Shown here in pieces: positions 18,657-64,000 of a DNA stretch of 64,000 bases. Every line of letters starts with the position of its first letter. Within the stretch, counting starts at the first letter, position 1. Origin of the DNA: Micromonospora sp. NBC_01796 (GTDB lineage Bacteria; Actinomycetota; Actinomycetes; Mycobacteriales; Micromonosporaceae); NCBI RefSeq assembly GCF_035917455.1, contig NZ_CP109078.1, forward strand, positions 6,494,001-6,558,000. The letters run 5' to 3'. Made by a program: the position numbers and the translations under genes. The notes under the pieces were generated by a model that was not told the origin of the DNA, ran no database searches, and saw nothing but the letters and a program-made list of their open reading frames with translations.

Positions 18657-19026
18657 GCGGGTCTCCTCTCCGGGCGCCGGAGTCCGTCCGGCCCTCAGCA
18701 TCGGCCGGCCCCGTGTGGGTGCGCAGGACAACGGCGCAAGTCGTGAACCCTGATGCTCCAGTGGCCCCTGTTACCCGCGCCCCGGAGCCGGGCTCTCGAA
18801 CCGGGCAAGGCCCAGTCGAAAATTTTCTGGGTTCCGATGGATTCTTGCAACCATCGGCGCTAATCTATCGCTCAACACACCGCCGAAACATGACCGCAAC
18901 ACCCGCGCAGCGGGGGTGGTCGCGGTCCTCGCCTAACACCCGATGCGGGCACCGCCATGGCACCACGGTCCAGCCGAGCCGATGGCGCCTGTCCCGGTGC
19001 CGCCACCGGGAAAGGAGACCCCCCGA
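18657..19026. promoter_or_regulatory. Control region between fmdBA and the giant secreted protein gene
   Basis: These 370 bp between divergent genes contain a 10-bp palindrome GAAAATTTTC (18818-18827) and, 6 bp further on, a perfect inverted repeat CCGATGG-N10-CCATCGG (18834-18857). Both lie about 170-210 bp before the giant gene's start and are unusually AT-rich for this genome. They are candidate operators for a LacI-type or other saccharide-responsive regulator. An RBS AAAGGAG (19011-19017) precedes the ATG at 19027. Exact -35/-10 boxes could not be assigned. Confidence 0.5.
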
Positions 19027-22000
19027 ATGTTCCGGTCCCCCCACCGCTCCCCGCGCCCGTCGGCGCAACGAAGACTCGCCCGACTGCTCACCGGGCTCGT
19101 CGCCGCGGCGACGGCCACGGTCACCGCGCTCAGCGCGGCGGCCCCGCCCGCCACCGCGACGCCGCCCGGACCAGCCGCCGCGAACGCCGAGAGCACCCAG
19201 AACGGTACGGGTGCCCGGAACAACGGGAACACCCGCGACGCCGCAGCCGGGCAGGCCCAGGCCGCCGCGGCGGCGTACTCGGTGCTGGTGTTCTCGAAGA
19301 CGGCCGGGTTCCGCCACGAGTCGATCCCGGCCGGGATCACCGCCATCCAGCAACTCGGCGCGGCGAACGACTTCACCGTCGACGCGACCGAGGACGCGAC
19401 CGCGTTCACCGACGCCAACCTGGCCCGCTACCGGGCGGTCATCTGGCTCTCCACCACCGGTGACGTGCTCGACCCGACCCAACAGGCCGCGTTCGAGCGG
19501 TTCATCCGGGCCGGCGGCGGTTACGTCGGCGTCCACGCCGCGGCCGACACCGAGTACGACTGGTCCTGGTACGGCAACCTGGTCGGCGCGTACTTCACCA
19601 GCCACCCGGCCAACCAGCAGGCCACGGTGAAGGTCGAGGACCCGGCGCACCCGTCCACGGCGGCCCTGCCGTCGCGGTGGAGCCGGTTCGACGAGTGGTA
19701 CAACTTCCGGACCAACCCGCGGGGTTCGGCGCACGTGCTGGCCAGCCTCGACGAGACCACCTACACCCCCGGTACGGGCGCGATGGGTGCGGACCACCCG
19801 ACCGCCTGGTGCAAGAACTACGACGGGGGCCGGTCCTGGTACACCGGCGGCGGCCACACCAACGAGTCGTACGCGGATCCGCAGTTCCGGTCCCACCTGC
19901 TCGGCGGCATCCAGACGGCGGCCGGGGTGGTCGGTGCCGACTGTGGTGCGACGCAGACCAGCGGTTTCGAGAAGGTGACCCTGGACAGCAATACGAGCAA
20001 CCCGATGGAGCTGGACATCGCGCCGGACGGCCGGGTCTTCTACCTCGAACGTGACGGCCGGTTGCGGATCATCAAGCCGGACACCCAGACCACCGTCACC
20101 GCCGCGACGCTGAACGTCTTCACCGGCAACGAGGACGGGCTGCTCGGTCTCACCCTCGACCCGAACTTCGCCACCAACCGGTGGGTCTACCTGTACTACT
20201 CGCCCAACGGTGGGGCGGCGCGCAACCTGCTGTCCCGGTTCACCATGAACGGCGACACCCTCGACCTGGCCAGCGAGCGGGTCGTCCTCCAGGTCGACAC
20301 CCAGCGCAACACCTGCTGCCACTCCGGCGGCACGATGACCTTCGACAGCGCGGGCAACCTCTACCTCGCCACCGGCGACAACACCAACCCGTTCGAGTCC
20401 GGCGGCTTCACGCCCATCGACGAGCGGTCCGGCCGGCAGGACTTCGACGCCCAGCGCAGCTCCGGCAACACCAACGACCTGCGCGGAAAGGTGATCCGGA
20501 TTCGCCCGGAGGCGAACGGCACCTACACCGTGCCGACCGGCAACCTCTTCACGCCCGGCACCGCGCAGACCCGTCCCGAGATCTACGCGATGGGCTTCCG
20601 CAACCCGTTCCGGATCGGCGTCGACCCGAGGACGAACGTGCTCTACGTGGCCGACTACGGCCCCGACGGGCAGGCCAACGCCGACCGGGGACCCGGCAAC
20701 ACGGTGGAGTGGAACATCGTCGGCCAGGCCGGCAACTACGGCTGGCCGTACTGCGTGGGCAGGAACGCGGCCTACCGGGACTACACCTTCCCGAACGGGC
20801 CGAGCGGAGCGGCGTTCAACTGCGCCGCGCCGGTCAACAACTCGCCGAACAACACCGGGCTGACCACCCTGCCGCCGGTGGTTCCGGCCACGGTCGACTA
20901 CGACTACGACGCCAACCCGCTCTTCCCCGAACTCGGCGGGGGTGGCGCCCCGATGGCCGGGCCGGTCTACCGGTACGACCCGGCCCTCGCCTCCAGCCGC
21001 AAGTGGCCGGCGTACTACGACGGCAAGGCGATCTTCGGCGAGTGGAACCAGAACAAGCTGTACACAATGCAGGTCACCGCCGACGGGAAGTCGCTGGTGG
21101 ACATCAACCAGCTGCTGACCGGGATGTCGACGATCCGGCCGATGGACTTCGACTTCGGCCCGGACGGCGCGCTCTACCTGATCGAGTGGGGCAGCGGTTT
21201 CGGCGGCAACAACGACGACTCCGGCATCTACCGGATCGACTACCGGTCCGTCGACCCGGCACCCATCGCCGCCGCGACCGCGCAACCGGTCAACGGGCGG
21301 GCGCCGCTCACCGTGGCGTTCAGCAGCGCCGGGTCGCGGGACCCGGAGGGACAACCGATCACGTACGCGTGGCGCTTCGGTGACGGAGGCACCTCGACCC
21401 AGGCGAACCCGACCTACACGTACACCACCAACGGCAACTTCACCGCCCAGTTGACGGTGACCGATCCCGGTGGCCGCAGCGCGGTGGCGAACGTGCCGAT
21501 CACGGTCGGCAACACCGCACCCGTGGTGACCCTGACCCTGCCCCCGAACGGCGGGTTCTTCGACTGGGGCGCCCAGGTGAACTACGCGGTGACCGTCACC
21601 GACCCCGACGGCGGCACCATCGACTGCTCCCGCGTGACCTTGCAGTACCTGCTCGGGCACGACGAGCACGCGCACCCGTTGCAGCAGAAGACCGGCTGCT
21701 CGGGCTCCGTACAGACCTCGCTGGACAGCGGGCACGGCGGTGACGCGAACATCTTCGCCGTACTGGAGGCGACCTACACCGATCTGGGCGGACCCGGCGG
21801 GGCCGCGCCGCTGACCGGCCGTTCGCTGGTCCAGTTGCAGCCCAAGCGGAAGCAGGCCGAGTACTTCACCGGCACCGGTCGGATCGCCGGTGCACCCACC
21901 GGCGGTACGCCGGGCGTGCAGCGGGAGGCCACCACCGACCCGCAGGGCGGCTTCCAGAACATCGCCTTCGTCGAGAACGGCGACTGGTGGTCGTACACGC

Positions 22001-24996
22001 CGACCAACCTCACCGGGATCCAGTCGCTGCGGCTGCGGGCGTCCTCCGGTGGCACCGGCGGCACGGTCGAGGTGCGTACCGGTTCGGCCACCGGAACACT
22101 GCTCGGCTCGGTGGTCGTACCGGGGACCGGCGGGTGGCAGAACTTCACCGACCTGACCGTACCGCTGGCCGCCAGCGCCACGACCGGGCCGCTGTTCTTC
22201 GTGGCGAAGGCCGCGTCGGGCACCGCGGCGGGGACCTCCCTGCTCAACGTCAACTGGGTGGACTTCGTCGGGGCGGGCGTGGGCGGCAACACCCCGCCGC
22301 AGGTGACCGCGGCGGCGACACCCACCTCCGGCGCCGCGCCGCTGCCGGTGACCTTCACCGGCAGTGCCACCGACGCCGAGGGCGACACCCCGCTGACGTA
22401 CGCCTGGGACTTCGGCGACGGCGGTACGGCGACCACCGCCAACACCACCCACACGTACGCCAGCGCCGGCACCTTCACCGCGACGCTGACCGTGACCGAC
22501 GCGCGTGGTGCCCGGAGCACCGCCACCGTCGTGATCACCGTGACCGGCGGCCCGGCACCCACCGGATCGTCGAACGTGCACCTGTTCTACTACCCCTGGT
22601 ACGGCAGCCCGACCGGACCCAACGGCGGCTGGCGGCACTGGCAGCAGGGTGGGCGCACCCCGCCGAACGACGTCGGGGCGGACTTCTACCCGACCCTGGG
22701 CGCGTACGACTCGGGTGACCCGGCGGTGCTCGCGCAGCACATGGCCTGGGTGAAGCAGTCCGGTGCGAACACGCTCGTCTACTCCTGGTGGGGCCAGGGC
22801 TCGTACGAGGACAACCTGGTCACCACCGTGATGAACGCGGCGGCCCAGCAGGGCATCAAGATCGCCTGGCACCTGGAGCCGTACAGCGGTCGCACCGCCG
22901 CCTCGACCGTCGCCGACATCAACTACATCAACACCCGGTACGGCAGCCACCCGGCCTTCTACCGGGCAGCGGACCAGGGCAACCGGCCGGCGTTCTACGT
23001 CTTCGAGAGCCTGCTCATCCCGGACTGGTCGGCGCTGAGCCAGGTCAACGCGAACAACATCATCCTGGCCCAGACCACCGACACCTCGAAGATCGCCGGC
23101 TTCTCCGGCATGTACACCTACGACGCGATCGCCGCGACGACCGCACCCGGCTGGGCCAACGCCAGCGCGTACGCGAAGGCGAACAACCTGATCTGGGCAC
23201 CGTCGATCGGCCCCGGCTACATCGACGACCGGGCCGTGCCCGGCAACACCACCCCCACCCTGGCCCGCAACAACGGCGCCACCTACGACCAGGTGTGGAA
23301 CAACGCCCTGGGTACGGCAACCGGTGGCCTGCCCACCTGGGTGTCGATCACCTCGTTCAACGAGTGGCACGAGGGCTCGACCATCGAGCCGGCCCGGAGC
23401 ACGCCCCCGTCCGGGTTCAACTACCAGACCTACTCCGGCGCGTACGGGCGCACCGGGGCGTCGGCGGAGACGGCGTACCTCGACCGGACCGCGTACTGGG
23501 CGGCCGAGTTCGAACGGCTGCGCGGCGGCACCGGCGGTGGACTGGTCGCACAGCCGACCAGCGTCACCTTCGGCGCGCAGAACGTCAACACCAGCAGCGC
23601 AGCCCAGGCCGTCACCGTACGCAACACCGGCACCACCGCGGTGGCGCTGACCGGTGTGGTCACCGGCGGTGACTTCAGCCAGACCAACACCTGCGGATCG
23701 TCGCTGGCCCCGGGCGCCACCTGCACCGTCAACGTCACGTTCCGACCGACCGCCGCCGGGACCCGCACCGGCTCGTTGACGGTCACCCCGGCGACCGGGA
23801 CCGCGCTGACCGTGCCGCTGTCCGGCACCGGGGTCAACCCGAGCAGCAACCTGGCCGCCGGTCGCCCGGTCACCGCCACCAGCGCCAACCAAGGGTACGC
23901 ACCGGGCAACACGGTCGACGGCAACGGGTCGAGCTACTGGGAGAGCGCCAACAACGCGTTCCCGCAGTCGCTGACGGTCGACCTCGGTGCGGCGGTGACG
24001 GTCAACCGGGCGGTGCTCAAGCTGCCGCCGGGCTGGGGAACCCGTAACCAGACGTTGTCCGTACTCGGCTCCACGGACGGCACGTCGTACTCGACCGTGC
24101 TCGGCTCGGCCAGCTACACCTTCAACCCGGCCAGCGCGAACACGGTCACCCTCAACCTGCCGGCCGGGGCCCGCCGCTACCTGCGGCTGACCTTCACCGG
24201 CAACACCGGTTGGCCGGCGGCCCAACTGTCGGAGTTCGAGGTGTACGCCGGCGGCGGCACCGGGGGACCGGTGCTGTCGGTCTCGCCCGGCACCCTGTCG
24301 TTCGGCAGCCGTACGGTCGGATCGCCCAGTCCGGCCAGTGCGGTGACGGTCTCCAACTCCGGTACGGCGGCGGCGACCATCACCGGCGTCACCGCCACCG
24401 GGGACTTCGCCCAGTCCAACACCTGCGGTTCGAGTCTCGCGGCGGGGGTGTCCTGCACGGTCAACGTGACGTTCACCCCCACCGCCACCGGAGCCCGTAC
24501 GGGCACCCTGTCGGTGGCCTCGAACGCGCCGGGCAGCCCGCTCACCGTGGGGCTGTCCGGCACCGGCACCGCCACCAACGCCAACCTGGCGGCGGGTCGG
24601 CCGGTCACCGCGACCAGCACCAGCCAGAACTACGGTGCCGGCAACACGGTCGACGGCAATCCGTCGAGTTACTGGGAGAGCGCCAACAACGCGTTCCCGC
24701 AGTCGCTGACGGTCGACCTCGGCTCGGCGGTGACGGTGTCCCGGCTGGTGCTCAAGCTGCCACCGGCGACGGACTGGGGGACCCGTACCCAGACCCTGTC
24801 GGTGCTCGGCTCCACCAACGGGTCGACGTACTCGACCGTCGTGGGCTCGGCCGGCTACACCTTCAACCCGGCCTCCGGTAACACCGCGACGATCACCTTC
24901 CAGGGCACGTCACAGCGTTACCTGCGGCTGACCTTCACCGCCAACACGGGTTGGCCCGCCGGCCAACTTTCCGAGTTCGAGGCGTACGCCTCCTGA
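19027..24996 (+). CDS. Secreted multidomain ThuA / sorbosone dehydrogenase-like / GH99 protein, 1989 aa
   Basis: This is a very large exported protein. After a signal (RLARLLTGLVAAATATVTAL) come: a ThuA-like domain (about 84-305, VLVFSKTAGFRHESIPAG); a sorbosone/glucose dehydrogenase-like beta-propeller (312-741, LDIAPDGRVFYLERDGRLRII, GFRNPFRIGVDP); a PKD domain (743-828); an Ig-like segment; CBM6 (940-1080, ENGDWWSYTP); a second PKD domain; a GH99-type catalytic domain (1181-1501, YYPWYG and SFNEWHEGSTIEP); then two ASH + F5/8C units (1507-1742 and 1749-1989). In GH99 enzymes the E-W-H-E pair is catalytic; here E1446 and E1449. Family members cleave alpha-mannosides internally. ATG 19027 is chosen for AAAGGAG 9 nt upstream. 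Probable role: binding and breaking extracellular mannan-like glycans. Confidence 0.9.
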   Translation: MFRSPHRSPRPSAQRRLARLLTGLVAAATATVTALSAAAPPATATPPGPAAANAESTQNGTGARNNGNTRDAAAGQAQAAAAAYSVLVFSKTAGFRHESIPAGITAIQQLGAANDFTVDATEDATAFTDANLARYRAVIWLSTTGDVLDPTQQAAFERFIRAGGGYVGVHAAADTEYDWSWYGNLVGAYFTSHPANQQATVKVEDPAHPSTAALPSRWSRFDEWYNFRTNPRGSAHVLASLDETTYTPGTGAMGADHPTAWCKNYDGGRSWYTGGGHTNESYADPQFRSHLLGGIQTAAGVVGADCGATQTSGFEKVTLDSNTSNPMELDIAPDGRVFYLERDGRLRIIKPDTQTTVTAATLNVFTGNEDGLLGLTLDPNFATNRWVYLYYSPNGGAARNLLSRFTMNGDTLDLASERVVLQVDTQRNTCCHSGGTMTFDSAGNLYLATGDNTNPFESGGFTPIDERSGRQDFDAQRSSGNTNDLRGKVIRIRPEANGTYTVPTGNLFTPGTAQTRPEIYAMGFRNPFRIGVDPRTNVLYVADYGPDGQANADRGPGNTVEWNIVGQAGNYGWPYCVGRNAAYRDYTFPNGPSGAAFNCAAPVNNSPNNTGLTTLPPVVPATVDYDYDANPLFPELGGGGAPMAGPVYRYDPALASSRKWPAYYDGKAIFGEWNQNKLYTMQVTADGKSLVDINQLLTGMSTIRPMDFDFGPDGALYLIEWGSGFGGNNDDSGIYRIDYRSVDPAPIAAATAQPVNGRAPLTVAFSSAGSRDPEGQPITYAWRFGDGGTSTQANPTYTYTTNGNFTAQLTVTDPGGRSAVANVPITVGNTAPVVTLTLPPNGGFFDWGAQVNYAVTVTDPDGGTIDCSRVTLQYLLGHDEHAHPLQQKTGCSGSVQTSLDSGHGGDANIFAVLEATYTDLGGPGGAAPLTGRSLVQLQPKRKQAEYFTGTGRIAGAPTGGTPGVQREATTDPQGGFQNIAFVENGDWWSYTPTNLTGIQSLRLRASSGGTGGTVEVRTGSATGTLLGSVVVPGTGGWQNFTDLTVPLAASATTGPLFFVAKAASGTAAGTSLLNVNWVDFVGAGVGGNTPPQVTAAATPTSGAAPLPVTFTGSATDAEGDTPLTYAWDFGDGGTATTANTTHTYASAGTFTATLTVTDARGARSTATVVITVTGGPAPTGSSNVHLFYYPWYGSPTGPNGGWRHWQQGGRTPPNDVGADFYPTLGAYDSGDPAVLAQHMAWVKQSGANTLVYSWWGQGSYEDNLVTTVMNAAAQQGIKIAWHLEPYSGRTAASTVADINYINTRYGSHPAFYRAADQGNRPAFYVFESLLIPDWSALSQVNANNIILAQTTDTSKIAGFSGMYTYDAIAATTAPGWANASAYAKANNLIWAPSIGPGYIDDRAVPGNTTPTLARNNGATYDQVWNNALGTATGGLPTWVSITSFNEWHEGSTIEPARSTPPSGFNYQTYSGAYGRTGASAETAYLDRTAYWAAEFERLRGGTGGGLVAQPTSVTFGAQNVNTSSAAQAVTVRNTGTTAVALTGVVTGGDFSQTNTCGSSLAPGATCTVNVTFRPTAAGTRTGSLTVTPATGTALTVPLSGTGVNPSSNLAAGRPVTATSANQGYAPGNTVDGNGSSYWESANNAFPQSLTVDLGAAVTVNRAVLKLPPGWGTRNQTLSVLGSTDGTSYSTVLGSASYTFNPASANTVTLNLPAGARRYLRLTFTGNTGWPAAQLSEFEVYAGGGTGGPVLSVSPGTLSFGSRTVGSPSPASAVTVSNSGTAAATITGVTATGDFAQSNTCGSSLAAGVSCTVNVTFTPTATGARTGTLSVASNAPGSPLTVGLSGTGTATNANLAAGRPVTATSTSQNYGAGNTVDGNPSSYWESANNAFPQSLTVDLGSAVTVSRLVLKLPPATDWGTRTQTLSVLGSTNGSTYSTVVGSAGYTFNPASGNTATITFQGTSQRYLRLTFTANTGWPAGQLSEFEAYAS

Positions 24997-27266: not shown

Positions 27267-30038
27267 TCAGCGCCCGGCGGGTGGGCTGGAGTAGACCGTC
27301 GGGTCGCCCTGGACGATCCAGACCTGGGGGCGGTCGATCGGCACGAACGAGCGGTCGCCGCCCGGTTCGCGGGTCGACGGCACGCTGTCGCCGTTCGGCA
27401 GGTGCATGATGAAGTTGACCGGACTGGTGTCCGCGACCAGCGGGATGTCGTACTCGGCCCAGCCGTTCTCGATCCGGGTCGGCGGCAGCGGACGGTCCCA
27501 GCCGATCGTGGCCAGGGTCGCCGGGTCGACCGCGTCACCCCAGAGGTGCAGCCCCCACTGGCCGTAGTCGCCCGCCGGCCGCAGGTAGTGCAGGGTGGCC
27601 GTGGGGATCGGCGGTCCGGCAGCGCGTACCCGCCGGGTGGCGCTGGTGACCCGCGTCCCGTTCGGCTCGGTGAGGATCGCCCGGTACTCGACCACCGTGT
27701 CGGCGGCCAGGTTCAGCGGCGTCAGGTCGTCGAAGACGGTGTAGACCGGTGCGGACGCGTCGGTGCCGATCCGCTGCCACGCACCGCCGGCAACGCGGCG
27801 TTCGACCCCCACCACGTGCGTCGCCCGGTCCGGGTCCGCGGTGGTACGCACCTCGACCCGCCCCCGTACGCCACTGCTCTCCGCCGGTGCGGCGATCGTC
27901 AGCGCGGGCGGCGGAACCACGGCGGAACGTACGCCGGTCTGGGCGGTGTGCCGGTTGTTGTCGAGCACCACCGCCCGGTACTGCACCGGCGTGCCCGGAG
28001 CCAGCCCGGACACGTCGTGGAACACCCGGTACGGGACGGTGTCGTCGGTGCCGATCGACTCCCACCGGCCGTTTTTGCCGACCCGGGCCTGGAAGGTGAC
28101 CTCGTTGAACGAGGAGCCGGCCAACTCGGCGGCGATCCGGATCCGTCCCGGCGTCTCGGGGGTGGGGACCGGTGCGGCGAGCGAGATCGCGGGTGCCGCC
28201 TTGGACCGGGGGAGTTGTCCGGTCGACTGGTAGACCAGGGTGCTCAGCGGCGGCACGGTCAGCGTCAGTTTCCGGTCGCCGCCGGTGCGTACGCGGTGGG
28301 TGCCGTCGCCGTACACGGAGGTGAAGGTGTGTCCGGCGAGGTAGGTCGGGATGGCCGCGGTCTGCGGCTGCTCGCTGTTGTTGGTCGCGACCACGTACTC
28401 GCGCTGCTCGGTCCGGTCGAGCCGGGAGTAGGCGTAGATGCCCGGACCGTCGGTGGCGTAGCGGTGCTGGTGGGTGCCGTCGCGCAGGGCAGGGTGGCTG
28501 CGGGTGAGCGCGGCGAGCCGGCTGATCGACCGGTAGAGCGGGTGTCCGGGTACGAAGTTGTCCTGCCCGTGGGTGGCGTCGGTGCCGATCAGGTCGTCGT
28601 CGAGGTACGCCGGCACCTGGCTGGCGAACATCGTCTGCCGGGCGGCCTGGTCCCCGCCGGGGCCGGTGAAGCCCTGCTCGTCGCCGTAGTAGACGACCGG
28701 GTTGCCCCGGGACAGGTACATCAGCTCGTGCGCCAGCCGGTCGCGGGCCAGCAACTCGGTGTCGTCGGCGCCCGGGTTGTCCGCGGCGACGAAGCTGCCG
28801 ATCCGGCCCATGTCGTGGTTACCGAGGAAGGTCGGCATCTGATAGACGTTCGAATCTCGATCGGTGTACCAGTCGTCGTCGGTGAAGAAGGTGGCGAGCT
28901 GGCTGGTCGGTTGGCCGCGTGAGGCGAAGTTGCGAGCCGCCTCCTGGAACGGGAAGTCGAGCACCGCCTGCATTCGGTCACGGGTGGTGAACTGCGAGGT
29001 GAACGCGCGGGTGGTGTCGAACACCTCGCCGAACATGAAGAACTCGGACTTTCCCTGGCGGTGTGCGTACCGCAGGACCTCGGGGCCGAAGCGTTGCCAG
29101 AACTCGTCGTTGACGTGCTTCATCGTGTCGATCCGGAAGCCGTCGATGCCGAAGTCGCCGATCCACCGCTGGTAGATGTCGATCATCCCGTCGACCACCC
29201 GGGGGTTCTCGGTGAACAGGTCGTCCAGCCCGAAGAAGTCGCCGTAGTACGAGTCCTCGCCGGTGAACGTCGTGTCACCCCGGTTGTGGTAGAGCGTGAC
29301 GTCGTTGAGCCAGGCCGGCACCTTCAGATCCCGCTCGGCCGGATCCAACACCGGCGTGTACGGGAACGACCTCTCCGGGCTCAGCGTCGGGAAGCTCGGC
29401 TTGCCCGCGCTGTCCCGGTCGTCGAACGGCACCCCGGCGGCGGTCCGGTACGGCACCGCGTCCTTGCCGGTGTACGCCATCCGGGCGCCCTGCTGGTAGC
29501 CGATGACGTCGGCGGTGTGGTTGGTGATGATGTCGAAGTAGACCTTCATCTCCCGGTCGTGTGCGGCGTCCACCAGGGCCCGCAGGTCCGCGTTGCTGCC
29601 CAGGTGCGGGTCGATCTGGGTGAAGTCGGTGATCCAGTAACCGTGGTAACCGGCGGACGGCCCGTCCTCGAGCTGGACGGCCTTGTTCTTGAAGCTGGGG
29701 GTCAGCCAGATCGCACTGGTGCCGAGCCCCCGGATGTAGTCGATCCGGTTCAGCAGTCCCTTGAGGTCACCGCCGTTGTAGAAGCCGGTCCGGGTCGGGT
29801 CGAAACCGGACACGAGGGGGTCGTCGCCGAGGCCGCCCCGGTCGTTGCCCGGATCACCGTTGGCGAACCGGTCGGCCATCACGAAGTAGAACGACTCGTC
29901 GGTGACCGGTGCGCGCAGCGAGTGCAGGGCCTGCGGATCGTGCCCGGAGCCCTTCCCGCTGGCGCTGGCCGGGACGGCGGGCAAGGCCATCGCCAGCATC
30001 ACCGACAGCAGCGCGGCGGTACGGGAACGGATCGACAT
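27267..30038 (-). CDS. Secreted GH13 alpha-amylase/pullulanase-type enzyme
   Basis: This 923-residue exported alpha-glucanase starts with a signal peptide (TAALLSVMLAMALPAVPASA). The GH13 barrel occupies about residues 45-600. Its catalytic set is visible: nucleophile D304 in GFRIDTMKHV, acid/base E338 in FFMFGEVFD and transition-state stabiliser D409 in FLGNHDMGR. D-I-I-T-N-H marks conserved region I. The C-terminal part has two Ig-like segments and a pullulanase-associated starch-binding type domain (ATLHYLRPAGDYGQWGLHLWGDAV, ending near residue 920). It probably cuts starch, glycogen or pullulan outside the cell. ATG 30038 follows AGGAGGAG. It is divergent from the formate dehydrogenase operon. 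Confidence 0.92.
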   Translation of the reverse strand: MSIRSRTAALLSVMLAMALPAVPASASGKGSGHDPQALHSLRAPVTDESFYFVMADRFANGDPGNDRGGLGDDPLVSGFDPTRTGFYNGGDLKGLLNRIDYIRGLGTSAIWLTPSFKNKAVQLEDGPSAGYHGYWITDFTQIDPHLGSNADLRALVDAAHDREMKVYFDIITNHTADVIGYQQGARMAYTGKDAVPYRTAAGVPFDDRDSAGKPSFPTLSPERSFPYTPVLDPAERDLKVPAWLNDVTLYHNRGDTTFTGEDSYYGDFFGLDDLFTENPRVVDGMIDIYQRWIGDFGIDGFRIDTMKHVNDEFWQRFGPEVLRYAHRQGKSEFFMFGEVFDTTRAFTSQFTTRDRMQAVLDFPFQEAARNFASRGQPTSQLATFFTDDDWYTDRDSNVYQMPTFLGNHDMGRIGSFVAADNPGADDTELLARDRLAHELMYLSRGNPVVYYGDEQGFTGPGGDQAARQTMFASQVPAYLDDDLIGTDATHGQDNFVPGHPLYRSISRLAALTRSHPALRDGTHQHRYATDGPGIYAYSRLDRTEQREYVVATNNSEQPQTAAIPTYLAGHTFTSVYGDGTHRVRTGGDRKLTLTVPPLSTLVYQSTGQLPRSKAAPAISLAAPVPTPETPGRIRIAAELAGSSFNEVTFQARVGKNGRWESIGTDDTVPYRVFHDVSGLAPGTPVQYRAVVLDNNRHTAQTGVRSAVVPPPALTIAAPAESSGVRGRVEVRTTADPDRATHVVGVERRVAGGAWQRIGTDASAPVYTVFDDLTPLNLAADTVVEYRAILTEPNGTRVTSATRRVRAAGPPIPTATLHYLRPAGDYGQWGLHLWGDAVDPATLATIGWDRPLPPTRIENGWAEYDIPLVADTSPVNFIMHLPNGDSVPSTREPGGDRSFVPIDRPQVWIVQGDPTVYSSPPAGR

Positions 30039-61518: not shown

Positions 61519-61900
61519 TTACCCGCCGATCAGGTCGAATCGTTCCCATGCTCCGATCGCACCTCTGTTCGCGATCAGAGGCGCGGCGCCGCTGTTTTCC
61601 GCGGCAACGTACTGGTTGTTCCCGATGGAGCGGAGACTGACGCTGCCGTCGGTGTTACGGACGAGCTGGAACGTCTCCCAGGTGCCGATGGTGGTTTTGT
61701 TGGCGATCAGGGGAGCGGTGCCGCTGGCGGCGGTGACGATCAGCCCGTTGGCCTTCGACCTCAGCGCGATGTTGCCGTTGCCGGCGTCGAGGCGGTCGAA
61801 CTGCTCCCAGGGGCCGATCGCGGCCCGGTTGGCGATCAGGGGCGCCGCCCCGGCGTTGTCGGCGGACACGTACTGGCTGTTCACCCGGGCCCGCAGGCTC
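61519..61900 (-). repeat. Fascin-like coding block repeated at 63083-63464
   Basis: The 382 bp coding the C-terminal domain of the GH99 gene align without gaps to 63083-63464 in the next gene (constant offset 1564 bp). Most of the right two-thirds is identical at nucleotide level. This indicates recent duplication or gene conversion between the two neighbouring genes. Confidence 0.8.
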
Positions 61901-63003
61901 ACCACCGGAGCCGTCGGCGCGCTCGGGTTGAACCGTTCGGCCCAGTAGCGGGTCCGGTCCAGGTACGCCGTCTGCGCCGCCGCCCCGGTCAGCCCGTACG
62001 CGCCGGAATAGGTCAGGTAGCCGTGTCCGGCCGGCGGGGTGGAACTCGCCGGCTCGATCGTCGAGCCCTCGTGCCACTCGTTGAACGACGTGATCGACAC
62101 CCAGTCCGGCGGGGTCGGCGTACCCAGGGCGTTGGTCCACTGCCGGTCGTACGCGGCCCCGTTGTCCCGGCCGAGCGTGGGCGTGGTGTTGCCCGGCACC
62201 GCCCGGTCGTCCAGGTAACCGGGCGCCACCGAGGGTGCCCAGACCAGCCCGTTCGCCCGGCAGTACGCCGCCGCGTTCGCCCAGCCCGGCGCGGTCGCCC
62301 CGGCGATGCCGTCATAGGTGTACATGCCGCCGAAGTTGGCCACCTTCGAGGTGTCCGTCGTCTGGGCCAGGACGATGTTGTTCGCCCGCACCTGGGCCAG
62401 CGGGGACCAGTCGGTGATCCGCAGGCTCTCGAAGACGTAGAACGCCGGGCGGTTGCCGTGCGCGGCGTCCCGGTAGAAGGCCGGGCTGGATCCGTACCGG
62501 GAGTTGATGTAGTTGATGTCGGCGACCGTGCTGGCCGCGGTCCGCCCGCTGTACGGCTCCAGGTGCCAGGCGACCTTGATGCCGTACTGGGCGGCGGCGG
62601 TCATGACCCGGGCGGTCAGGTTGTCCTCGTACGAGCCCTGCCCCCACCAGCTGTAGACGATCGTGCCCACCCCGGCCTGGCTGATCCAGGCCATGTGCTG
62701 GTTGATCGTGGCGACGTCGCCGGAGTCGTACGCACCCCGGGTCGGGTAGTAGTCCGCGCCGATGTCCTGCGGCGGGGTGTGGTTGCCCTGCTGCCAGTGC
62801 CGGTAGCTGCCGGCGACGGTCGGGTTGCCGTACCAGGAGTAGTAGAAGATGTGGACGTTGGACGCCGGTGCGGCCAGCGCCCGGACGGGTTCCTCTGCTC
62901 GCGGCGCCGCCTGCGGCGCCGGGCCGGGTGCGCCGACGAGCCCGACCGCGGTCAGCAGCAGGGTCGCCAGGGCGGTGCGCCCCCAGCGGGAGATCCGGTG
63001 CAT
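61519..63003 (-). CDS. Secreted GH99-type glycosidase with fascin-like C-terminal domain
   Basis: The 494-residue exported protein has a signal peptide (TALATLLLTAVGLVGAPG). A GH99-type domain (about 48-365) follows, with FYYSWYG near its start, VYSWWGQGSYEDNLT, VAWHLEPYSGRTAAS and SFNEWHEGSTIEP, where E309 and E312 are the expected catalytic pair. A fascin-like beta-trefoil domain (about 372-494, VSLRARVNSQYVSADN, NGLIVTA, SIGNNQYVAAE) probably binds carbohydrate. ATG 63003 follows GGAGGAAACAC. The GH99 part closely resembles residues 1181-1501 of the 1989-residue protein at 19027. The upstream gene on this strand ends 79 bp away, so they probably form an operon. Confidence 0.9.
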   Translation of the reverse strand: MHRISRWGRTALATLLLTAVGLVGAPGPAPQAAPRAEEPVRALAAPASNVHIFYYSWYGNPTVAGSYRHWQQGNHTPPQDIGADYYPTRGAYDSGDVATINQHMAWISQAGVGTIVYSWWGQGSYEDNLTARVMTAAAQYGIKVAWHLEPYSGRTAASTVADINYINSRYGSSPAFYRDAAHGNRPAFYVFESLRITDWSPLAQVRANNIVLAQTTDTSKVANFGGMYTYDGIAGATAPGWANAAAYCRANGLVWAPSVAPGYLDDRAVPGNTTPTLGRDNGAAYDRQWTNALGTPTPPDWVSITSFNEWHEGSTIEPASSTPPAGHGYLTYSGAYGLTGAAAQTAYLDRTRYWAERFNPSAPTAPVVSLRARVNSQYVSADNAGAAPLIANRAAIGPWEQFDRLDAGNGNIALRSKANGLIVTAASGTAPLIANKTTIGTWETFQLVRNTDGSVSLRSIGNNQYVAAENSGAAPLIANRGAIGAWERFDLIGG

Positions 63004-63082
63004 GTGTTTCCTCCGTGGTTGCCGAGCCTGGCCCTGACCGGTGCGGGCGGTGGCACGCCCGCACCGGTCACGGGTGCGGCGA

Positions 63083-64000
63083 TCAGCCGCCGATAAGGTC
63101 GAAGCGTTCCCAGGCACCGATCGCCGCTCGGTTGGCGATCAGCGCCTGGGCGCCGCCGCCTTCGGCGGCGACGTACTGGTTGTTCCCGATGGAGCGCAGG
63201 CTCACGCTGCCGTCGGTGTTACGGACGAGTTGGAACGTCTCCCAGGTGCCGATGGTGGTTTTGTTGGCGATCAGGGGAGCGGTGCCGTTGGCGGCGGTGA
63301 CGATCAGCCCGTTGGCCTTGGCCCGCAGGGCGATGTTGCCGTTGCCGGCGTCGAGGCGGTCGAACTGCTCCCAGGGGCCGATCGCGGCCCGGTTGGCGAT
63401 CAGCGGTGCCGCCCCGCCGTTGTCGGCGGACACGTACTGGCTGTTCACCCGGGCCCGCAGGCTGATCACCGCGGGCGTGCTGGTGGTGCCCGTGGTGAAG
63501 GTGAACGCGTCCACGTCGAACAGGTTCCCCTGCCCGGTCACGCCCTTGAACACCAGGTAGAGCGTGGTGCTGCCGGTCGGCGCGTTGGACAGGTTGGCGG
63601 TCACGTTCGTGAACGTCTCCCAGCCGCCGGTCGGCGCGACCGCGACGCTACCGAGCAGGGTGCCGGTGGCGGAGCCGGTACGCACCTCGATGGTGCCGCC
63701 GACACCGCCGGAGGAGACCCGGGCGGTGAACTGGGTCGCGTTGCCCAGCAGGTACGGCTGGTACGAGATCCAGTCGCCGTTGTCGACGAAGCCGGCCGTA
63801 CGGCCACCCTCGGCGGCGGCGTGGTCGGCCGTCTGGATGCCGGACTGGGCGCCGAAGTGCTCGCCCTGCCGGTGCTTCGGCTGGAGCGTCCGGGTGCTGC
63901 GCGAGGTCAGACCACCGTTGTCGGTGTACGAGGCGTCGAAGACCCCGAAGATGTTCGCGGCCGAGTCGTGCTCCCCGTCGACCGGGATGGTGATCGTCCC
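63083..64000 (-). CDS. Secreted CBM6 + fascin-like protein, C-terminal part (5' end outside window)
   Basis: The frame is open to the right edge and stops at 63083. From the edge it reads: the end of an Ig-like segment (TITIPVDGEHDSAANIFGVFDASYTDNGG), a linker LQPKHRQGEHF, a CBM6 domain (GRTAGFVDNGDWISYQPY, GGTIEVRTGSATGTLLGSV) and a fascin-like domain (VISLRARVNSQYVSADNGG, ending AWERFDLIGG). The Ig-linker-CBM6 order and wording match residues about 910-1080 of the 1989-residue protein. The missing N-terminal part is therefore likely to hold ThuA and sorbosone-dehydrogenase-like domains. It precedes the GH99 gene on the same strand. Confidence 0.87.
   Translation of the reverse strand, partial: GTITIPVDGEHDSAANIFGVFDASYTDNGGLTSRSTRTLQPKHRQGEHFGAQSGIQTADHAAAEGGRTAGFVDNGDWISYQPYLLGNATQFTARVSSGGVGGTIEVRTGSATGTLLGSVAVAPTGGWETFTNVTANLSNAPTGSTTLYLVFKGVTGQGNLFDVDAFTFTTGTTSTPAVISLRARVNSQYVSADNGGAAPLIANRAAIGPWEQFDRLDAGNGNIALRAKANGLIVTAANGTAPLIANKTTIGTWETFQLVRNTDGSVSLRSIGNNQYVAAEGGGAQALIANRAAIGAWERFDLIGG

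Follow-up and report, generated by a model that had tools for sequence, protein, structure and literature searches.

The window analysed here is a stretch of 64,000 nucleotides from Micromonospora sp. NBC_01796, whose 8.56-Mb genome consists of one contig. One long plus-strand gene in the window combines a ThuA domain, a GSDH-type beta-propeller and a GH99 catalytic domain, and genes with the same parts lie at and beyond the right edge of the window on the minus strand. The features are as follows, in window numbering.

19027-24996, plus strand: giant secreted protein of 1989 residues, in the order ThuA-GSDH-PKD-CBM6-PKD-GH99-ASH-F5/8C-ASH-F5/8C
19282-19914, plus strand: ThuA domain of the giant, residues 86-296 (PF06283, E = 3.1e-83; PDB 4jqs by fold, Z 23.5)
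19984-21246, plus strand: GSDH-type beta-propeller, residues about 320-740 (PF07995, E = 2.7e-44; fold match 2ism, Z 39.0)
21913-22269, plus strand: CBM6, residues 963-1081 (PF03422; closest PDB entry 1w9s)
22573-23514, plus strand: GH99 catalytic domain, residues 1183-1496 (PF16317, E = 1.7e-61; PDB 4acy, 6zdc and 4ad1)
23557-24978, plus strand: C-terminal ASH-type and F5/8C repeats (PF15780, PF00754 and others)
61519-63003, minus strand: split GH99-CBM92 gene; translation from the ATG at 63003 gives 494 residues, and the longest open reading frame starts at 63117
61519-61914, minus strand: fascin-like, CBM92-type module of the split GH99 gene (7zoh, E = 2.7e-19; three WExF motifs in the translation)
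63083-64000, minus strand: 3' part of the split GSDH-PKD-CBM6-CBM92 gene; the whole gene reaches 65926 and encodes 947 residues
65977-68106, minus strand, outside the window: ThuA, 3-keto-disaccharide hydrolase and two F5/8C domains, 709 residues
68266-71490, minus strand, outside the window: GH95-like and fascin-like gene, upstream of the split ThuA gene

The frame of the giant starts at the ATG at 19027, and an alternative in-frame ATG at 18943 would give 2017 residues. The first-pass annotation had described a multi-domain fusion of 1989 residues. The Pfam scan recovered its ThuA domain, propeller (GSDH span, residues 324-584), two PKD domains, CBM6 and GH99, whereas the part called Ig, between the first PKD domain and CBM6, had no match of its own at E ≤ 1e-3. 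The 3-keto-disaccharide hydrolase family (PF06439) was absent among the 17 Pfam families matched in the giant at this threshold, and the same scan found no CBM92. A protein of 923 residues with alpha-amylase and pullulanase-associated domains (27267-30038, minus strand) is encoded 2.3 kb downstream of the giant on the opposite strand.

We then extended the sequence to the right of position 64000. Four minus-strand genes are transcribed towards the window, encoding in turn the GH95-like protein, ThuA with the 3-keto hydrolase domain, GSDH-PKD-CBM6 with a fascin-like tail, and GH99 with a fascin-like tail. The gaps between them are 159, 50 and 79 bases, taking the starts judged likely. In the split ThuA protein PF06439 scored 135.4 bits against a cut-off of 26.8. 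ThuA, propeller and GH99 are therefore encoded by three consecutive genes, and the giant corresponds to these three genes in unchanged order. The identity between the giant and the split proteins is 67% for ThuA, 49% from GSDH to CBM6, and 75% for GH99. The first-pass annotation was right about a GH99 and fascin-like gene (61519-63117, minus strand) and about a CBM6 and fascin-like gene crossing the edge. It had further read the parts of the giant as two neighbouring genes; separate genes in the same order are indeed present, but they are three with a fourth, GH95-like partner, not two. It had also named the lack of ThuA and propeller domains in the gene cut by the window edge as a refuting outcome. 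This gene (63083-65926) carries the propeller and lacks ThuA, which is in the next gene, and half of that outcome is therefore observed.

The GH95-like protein with its CBM92-type tail (L009:10266-13490:-) accompanies the split GH99 operon as a conserved partner. It scored only 53.9 bits against GH95_cat and may belong to a distinct glycosidase group. The mean pLDDT of its predicted structure was 38.5.

The GH99 assignment was examined in both window copies, which matched PF16317 with 208.7 and 216.3 bits (curated cut-off, 33) and aligned along most of the domain with the solved structures of human MANEA and of GH99 enzymes from Bacteroides. The motif NEWHE, which holds the catalytic Glu pair, was found in all 122 GH99 domain copies taken from overlapping samples. 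At the position of MANEA residue 189, 119 of these 122 overlapping copies have Trp, one has Leu, and two have no readable motif; both window copies have the Trp. According to the available part of one report, the Glu pair in EW[H/G]E is catalytic and the Trp is typical of mannan-digesting bacterial enzymes (PMC11025385). Thus the domain match, the EWHE pair and the mannanase-type Trp are shared with the known endo-alpha-1,2-mannanases and endomannosidases (Bacteroides 4acy and 4ad1; human 6zdc). However, these structures are matched over the GH99 domain only, and the GH99 described here has ThuA and a propeller in the same protein or in neighbouring genes. We predict that the GH99 domain is an endo-alpha-mannanase, with fungal alpha-mannan as its likely target; it would cut the alpha-mannan side chains of fungal wall mannoprotein.

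Both fascin-like copies of the window have three WExF motifs. All 103 fascin-like tails that we collected have two or three, in a count where locus samples overlap and some sequences are counted twice. In the accessible text of one paper, the former fascin-like domains are classed as CBM92, binders of beta-1,6-glucan with WExF at each site, and GH99 alpha-mannanases are named among their partners (PMC11039641). With this motif and the match of the split GH99 protein to 7zoh, the tails can be assigned to CBM92 as predicted binders. The split gene has the C-terminal WExF beta-trefoil on GH99 in common with the published combination, while the giant lacks CBM92, and the portion of that text available to us mentions no ThuA or propeller partner. 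In the giant, CBM6 is closest to PDB 1w9s and the last F5/8C unit is closest to glucanase and chitosanase modules such as 4zz5. The 1w9s module is a beta-1,3-glucan binder, and modules such as 4zz5 bind chitosan. These carbohydrate-binding modules may hold the proteins on the glucan of fungal walls.

To see how general the arrangement is, we surveyed GH99 loci with profiles made from the domains of the host genome. A search of 300 genomes of the family gave a match in 52. We kept all 39 strong places outside the host genome, with flanks of up to about 9.5 kb, and dropped places of 70 bits or less. ThuA and/or GSDH was fused to GH99 or lay within about 10 kb of it at 33 of these 39 loci, and neither was found at 6. 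A second sample from GTDB consisted of 79 loci. It is a biased sample, because the relatives were ordered by how closely they resembled the query and the top-scoring 80 of at least 495 were taken. Such a partner was present at 60 of these best 79 loci and absent at 19. Outside the Micromonosporaceae, a count that removes the overlap with the family sample, 44 of 58 of these best-scoring loci had a partner, fused or near. Some partnerless loci sit at contig ends or on short contigs. For comparison, about 4.3% of the host genome lies equally close to a ThuA or GSDH gene.

The domain orders in related genomes, whose survey had been proposed in the first-pass annotation, show the association recurring as an operon, as partial fusions and as the full fusion. 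In Streptomycetaceae, ThuA is fused to GH99 with GSDH nearby at 26 of 28 loci. The full fusion also occurs in Actinophytocola, Dactylosporangium and Phytohabitans, and one Micromonospora has a GSDH-GH99 fusion. Separate adjoining genes were found in Catellatospora, Microbispora, Micromonospora, Nonomuraea, Phytohabitans, Plantactinospora and Sphaerisporangium. A sample of 396 genomes across the phylum yielded 24 with a GH99 match, and we examined the seven places that scored at least 134 bits and were not from the host genome. Both places from the same class are ThuA-CBM6-GH99 beside GSDH, and none of the five places from other classes has a ThuA or GSDH partner. Thus the link belongs to one GH99 lineage and not to GH99 at large.

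Because the parts recur side by side or joined in various ways, they probably work together on one sugar polymer, perhaps fungal mannan. These counts support the earlier proposal of a single functional unit made up of the ThuA/propeller half and the GH99 half. It might be argued that the parts were shuffled by chance in genomes rich in ThuA and propellers and have no common substrate. ThuA and propeller loci are indeed numerous in the host genome, and the ThuA-propeller part is matched widely across plasmid-collection records (249 records, none of which spans 80% of the giant). However, 33 of 39 family loci and 44 of 58 of the best-scoring GTDB loci, in several unlike arrangements, are far from the 4.3% level, and we consider chance shuffling very unlikely.

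We next asked how the fused and split forms are related. In the GH99 tree of 92 rows, separate groups were formed by the fusions, whose fork has a support of 88, by the operon form with CBM92 (97, a group with one row lacking CBM92), and by the Streptomyces-type ThuA-GH99 proteins with their kin (84). In a more careful tree of 35 rows, a single clade for the giant and operon copies of the host's own genus was rejected (AU test, p = 0.0004), and a single clade for the nine full fusions was not (p = 0.379). The GSDH tree, with 90 rows, unites the nine full fusions (84) and adds to them, with a support of 100, a ThuA-GSDH protein of the host genome that has no GH99; the operon propellers stand elsewhere in this tree. 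Support is only middling at many forks of the quick GH99 and GSDH trees, and the ThuA tree carries a long-branch warning and was used loosely.

The first-pass annotation had regarded the two window loci as a fusion or fission pair of each other. Their identical parts in identical order, 36 kb apart, invite this explanation, and in the three genomes of the genus that had matches the two GH99 copies are on opposite strands with about 34 to 39 kb between them. However, the AU test contradicts it, as do the GH99 tree and the GSDH tree, the latter placing the propeller of the giant as sister to that of a ThuA-propeller protein of the host genome without GH99, and so does the low identity of the propeller part (49%). 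A direct pair is thus left with a near-negligible probability, and the AU test and the GSDH tree reject a recent fusion or fission linking the two window loci. The giant would be neither derived from the split genes nor ancestral to them; rather, a ThuA-propeller protein probably gained a GH99 domain. Micromonospora sp. HM5-17 has an operon-type propeller fused to a GH99 of the fusion group, which is an independent joining. The GH99 of Actinophytocola xinjiangensis stands beside a Streptomyces GH99 in the 35-row tree (97/93).

The host genome also holds many other ThuA and/or GSDH loci with varied carbohydrate-binding tails (loci L010-L021 and the window), an expansion of these families. The paralogues in L010-L014 and L018 have the ThuA-GSDH-PKD-CBM6 core of the giant, up to 73% identical, but lack GH99. 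We scanned ten proteins, eight of them neighbours of four paralogues. At L013:197-3427 beside L013:3526-7188, a ThuA-propeller-CBM6-ricin paralogue is next to the permease of a sugar importer, a binding protein and a TIM-barrel protein of the AP_endonuc_2 family.

The propeller half had been called an oxidoreductase. We modelled the ThuA-propeller didomain (mean pLDDT 84.2, pTM 0.86), and the relative placement of the two domains was confident. Its fold matches were 2ism (Z 39.0), 1qbi (Z 34.7), AA12 (Z about 30) and the hedgehog-interacting protein (Z 32.0), which is a binding protein and not an enzyme. The catalytic residues His144, Arg228 and Asn229 were retained in all 90 aligned propellers. 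The positions of Lys377 and Arg408 were retained in none and are non-basic in all 90, with the Lys377 column being the least sure of the alignment (79 of 90 have Arg at the following residue, where the giant has Gln). Arg406 was retained in only 10 of 90, among them the nine full fusions, the giant included. On these propellers the only NCBIfam match was TIGR03606, far under its cut-off (70.8 and 51.1 against 434.55 bits). Canonical pqqC and pqqE were missing in 19 of 22 module-bearing genomes, that of the host among them; these 22 are a subset of the 31 family genomes with a strong GH99 place, and PqqC and PqqE scored above cut-off in the same three genomes. The oxidoreductase label is accordingly doubtful: the catalytic residues are invariant, but two positions of the PQQ clamp are lost and most of these genomes lack canonical pqqC and pqqE. 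Thus the oxidation step may not exist.

Two alternatives bear on these residues. The propeller could be an ordinary PQQ aldose dehydrogenase, which oxidizes C1 of the reducing ends released by GH99 with scavenged PQQ and passes the electrons to other secreted redox enzymes. The module propellers share the six-bladed fold and the catalytic His, Arg and Asn with the soluble PQQ sugar dehydrogenases (2ism, 1cq1, 3das) and fungal AA12 (6jt5, 6h7t), and sugar dehydrogenases are the closest fold matches of the modelled didomain; the module propellers differ in the altered Lys377 and Arg408 positions and in a host without canonical PQQ synthesis. The accessible text on fungal AA12 states that it lacks Lys377 and has another residue at Arg408 and nevertheless binds PQQ, and that E. 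coli depends on external PQQ (PMC6881789). PQQ binding despite an altered clamp, together with uptake from outside, makes PQQ use by the propeller possible in a host without canonical pqqC and pqqE. The changed clamp, the rarity of Arg406 and the missing synthesis genes speak against ordinary C1 oxidation, which would also leave ThuA and the 3-keto hydrolase domain unexplained, and we regard it as unlikely. Somewhat less probable again is a role without catalysis, in which ThuA and the propeller serve the GH99 enzyme only for binding or as spacers. The close match to the hedgehog-interacting protein and the altered clamp agree with such a role, but the active-site triad is invariant, and the same ThuA and propeller parts occur in many proteins without GH99.

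To our knowledge, ThuA is a widespread domain whose reaction is not settled. In the giant the ThuA profile scored 279.6 bits against a cut-off of 33.4. The 3-keto hydrolase domain was present at 24 of 39 family GH99 loci and at 19 of the 79 best-scoring GTDB loci, and one Streptomyces protein has the order ThuA-3KH-CBM6-GH99. In the available parts of the literature, DUF1080 enzymes are described as 3-keto-glycoside hydrolases (PMC9007349), and levoglucosan and phlorizin are degraded by oxidation-elimination pathways (PMC7676230, PMC10628242). A hydrolase domain of this 3-keto type likewise adjoins ThuA in the split cluster, whereas the proteins of the module look secreted and carry carbohydrate-binding modules. 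As far as is known, those pathways do not use GSDH-type propellers as their dehydrogenases. Their eliminases, named sugar phosphate isomerases, presumably belong to the AP_endonuc_2 family.

Taking these results together, we consider it probable (roughly 0.6) that a secreted three-part unit for glycan degradation is conserved in Actinomycetes and that the giant is one of its fused forms. In this unit GH99 would act on alpha-mannan and the ThuA/propeller half would process sugar units of the same polymer. Against this reading stand the partnerless loci (6 of 39, 19 of the best 79, and all five in distant classes) and the giant itself, which has neither the 3-keto hydrolase nor CBM92. The most likely route for the ThuA/propeller half would be oxidation followed by cleavage through a 3-keto sugar. 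We put this route forward tentatively, because a 3-keto hydrolase domain accompanies ThuA both in the split genes and in the Streptomyces protein, and because of the known DUF1080 enzymes and the oxidation-elimination pathways. A bolder and rather improbable version is that one polysaccharide is broken by two chemistries on one chain, GH99 making the endo-cut and the propeller oxidizing in place to the 3-keto form, followed by cleavage involving ThuA; the propeller would then use another cofactor or bind PQQ in a non-classical mode.

The GH99-CBM92 combination is already in print, according to the available text (PMC11039641), and the ThuA-propeller part is widespread. We searched the titles and abstract openings of the literature, a search with subscription journals mostly outside it, and among the matches listed none had ThuA or a propeller together with GH99. 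The repeated joining to a predicted endo-mannanase suggests a concrete substrate class for ThuA and the propeller and offers good constructs for learning their roles. Propellers of this kind are annotated as PQQ dehydrogenases, a label that may be mistaken for the present group.

Two records among the surveyed loci are unusual. The giant of Phytohabitans flavus (L088 6037-11501, the same as L108) is divided between two reading frames within the GH99 domain, which reflects a broken gene or a sequencing error. The record of Rhodococcus rhodnii NRRL B-16535 (JOAA01000025.1 and JOAA01000001.1; L148 and L161) holds two GH99 loci that fall into a tight group with Kibdelosporangium aridum in the GH99 tree, and this assembly is probably mislabelled or contaminated.
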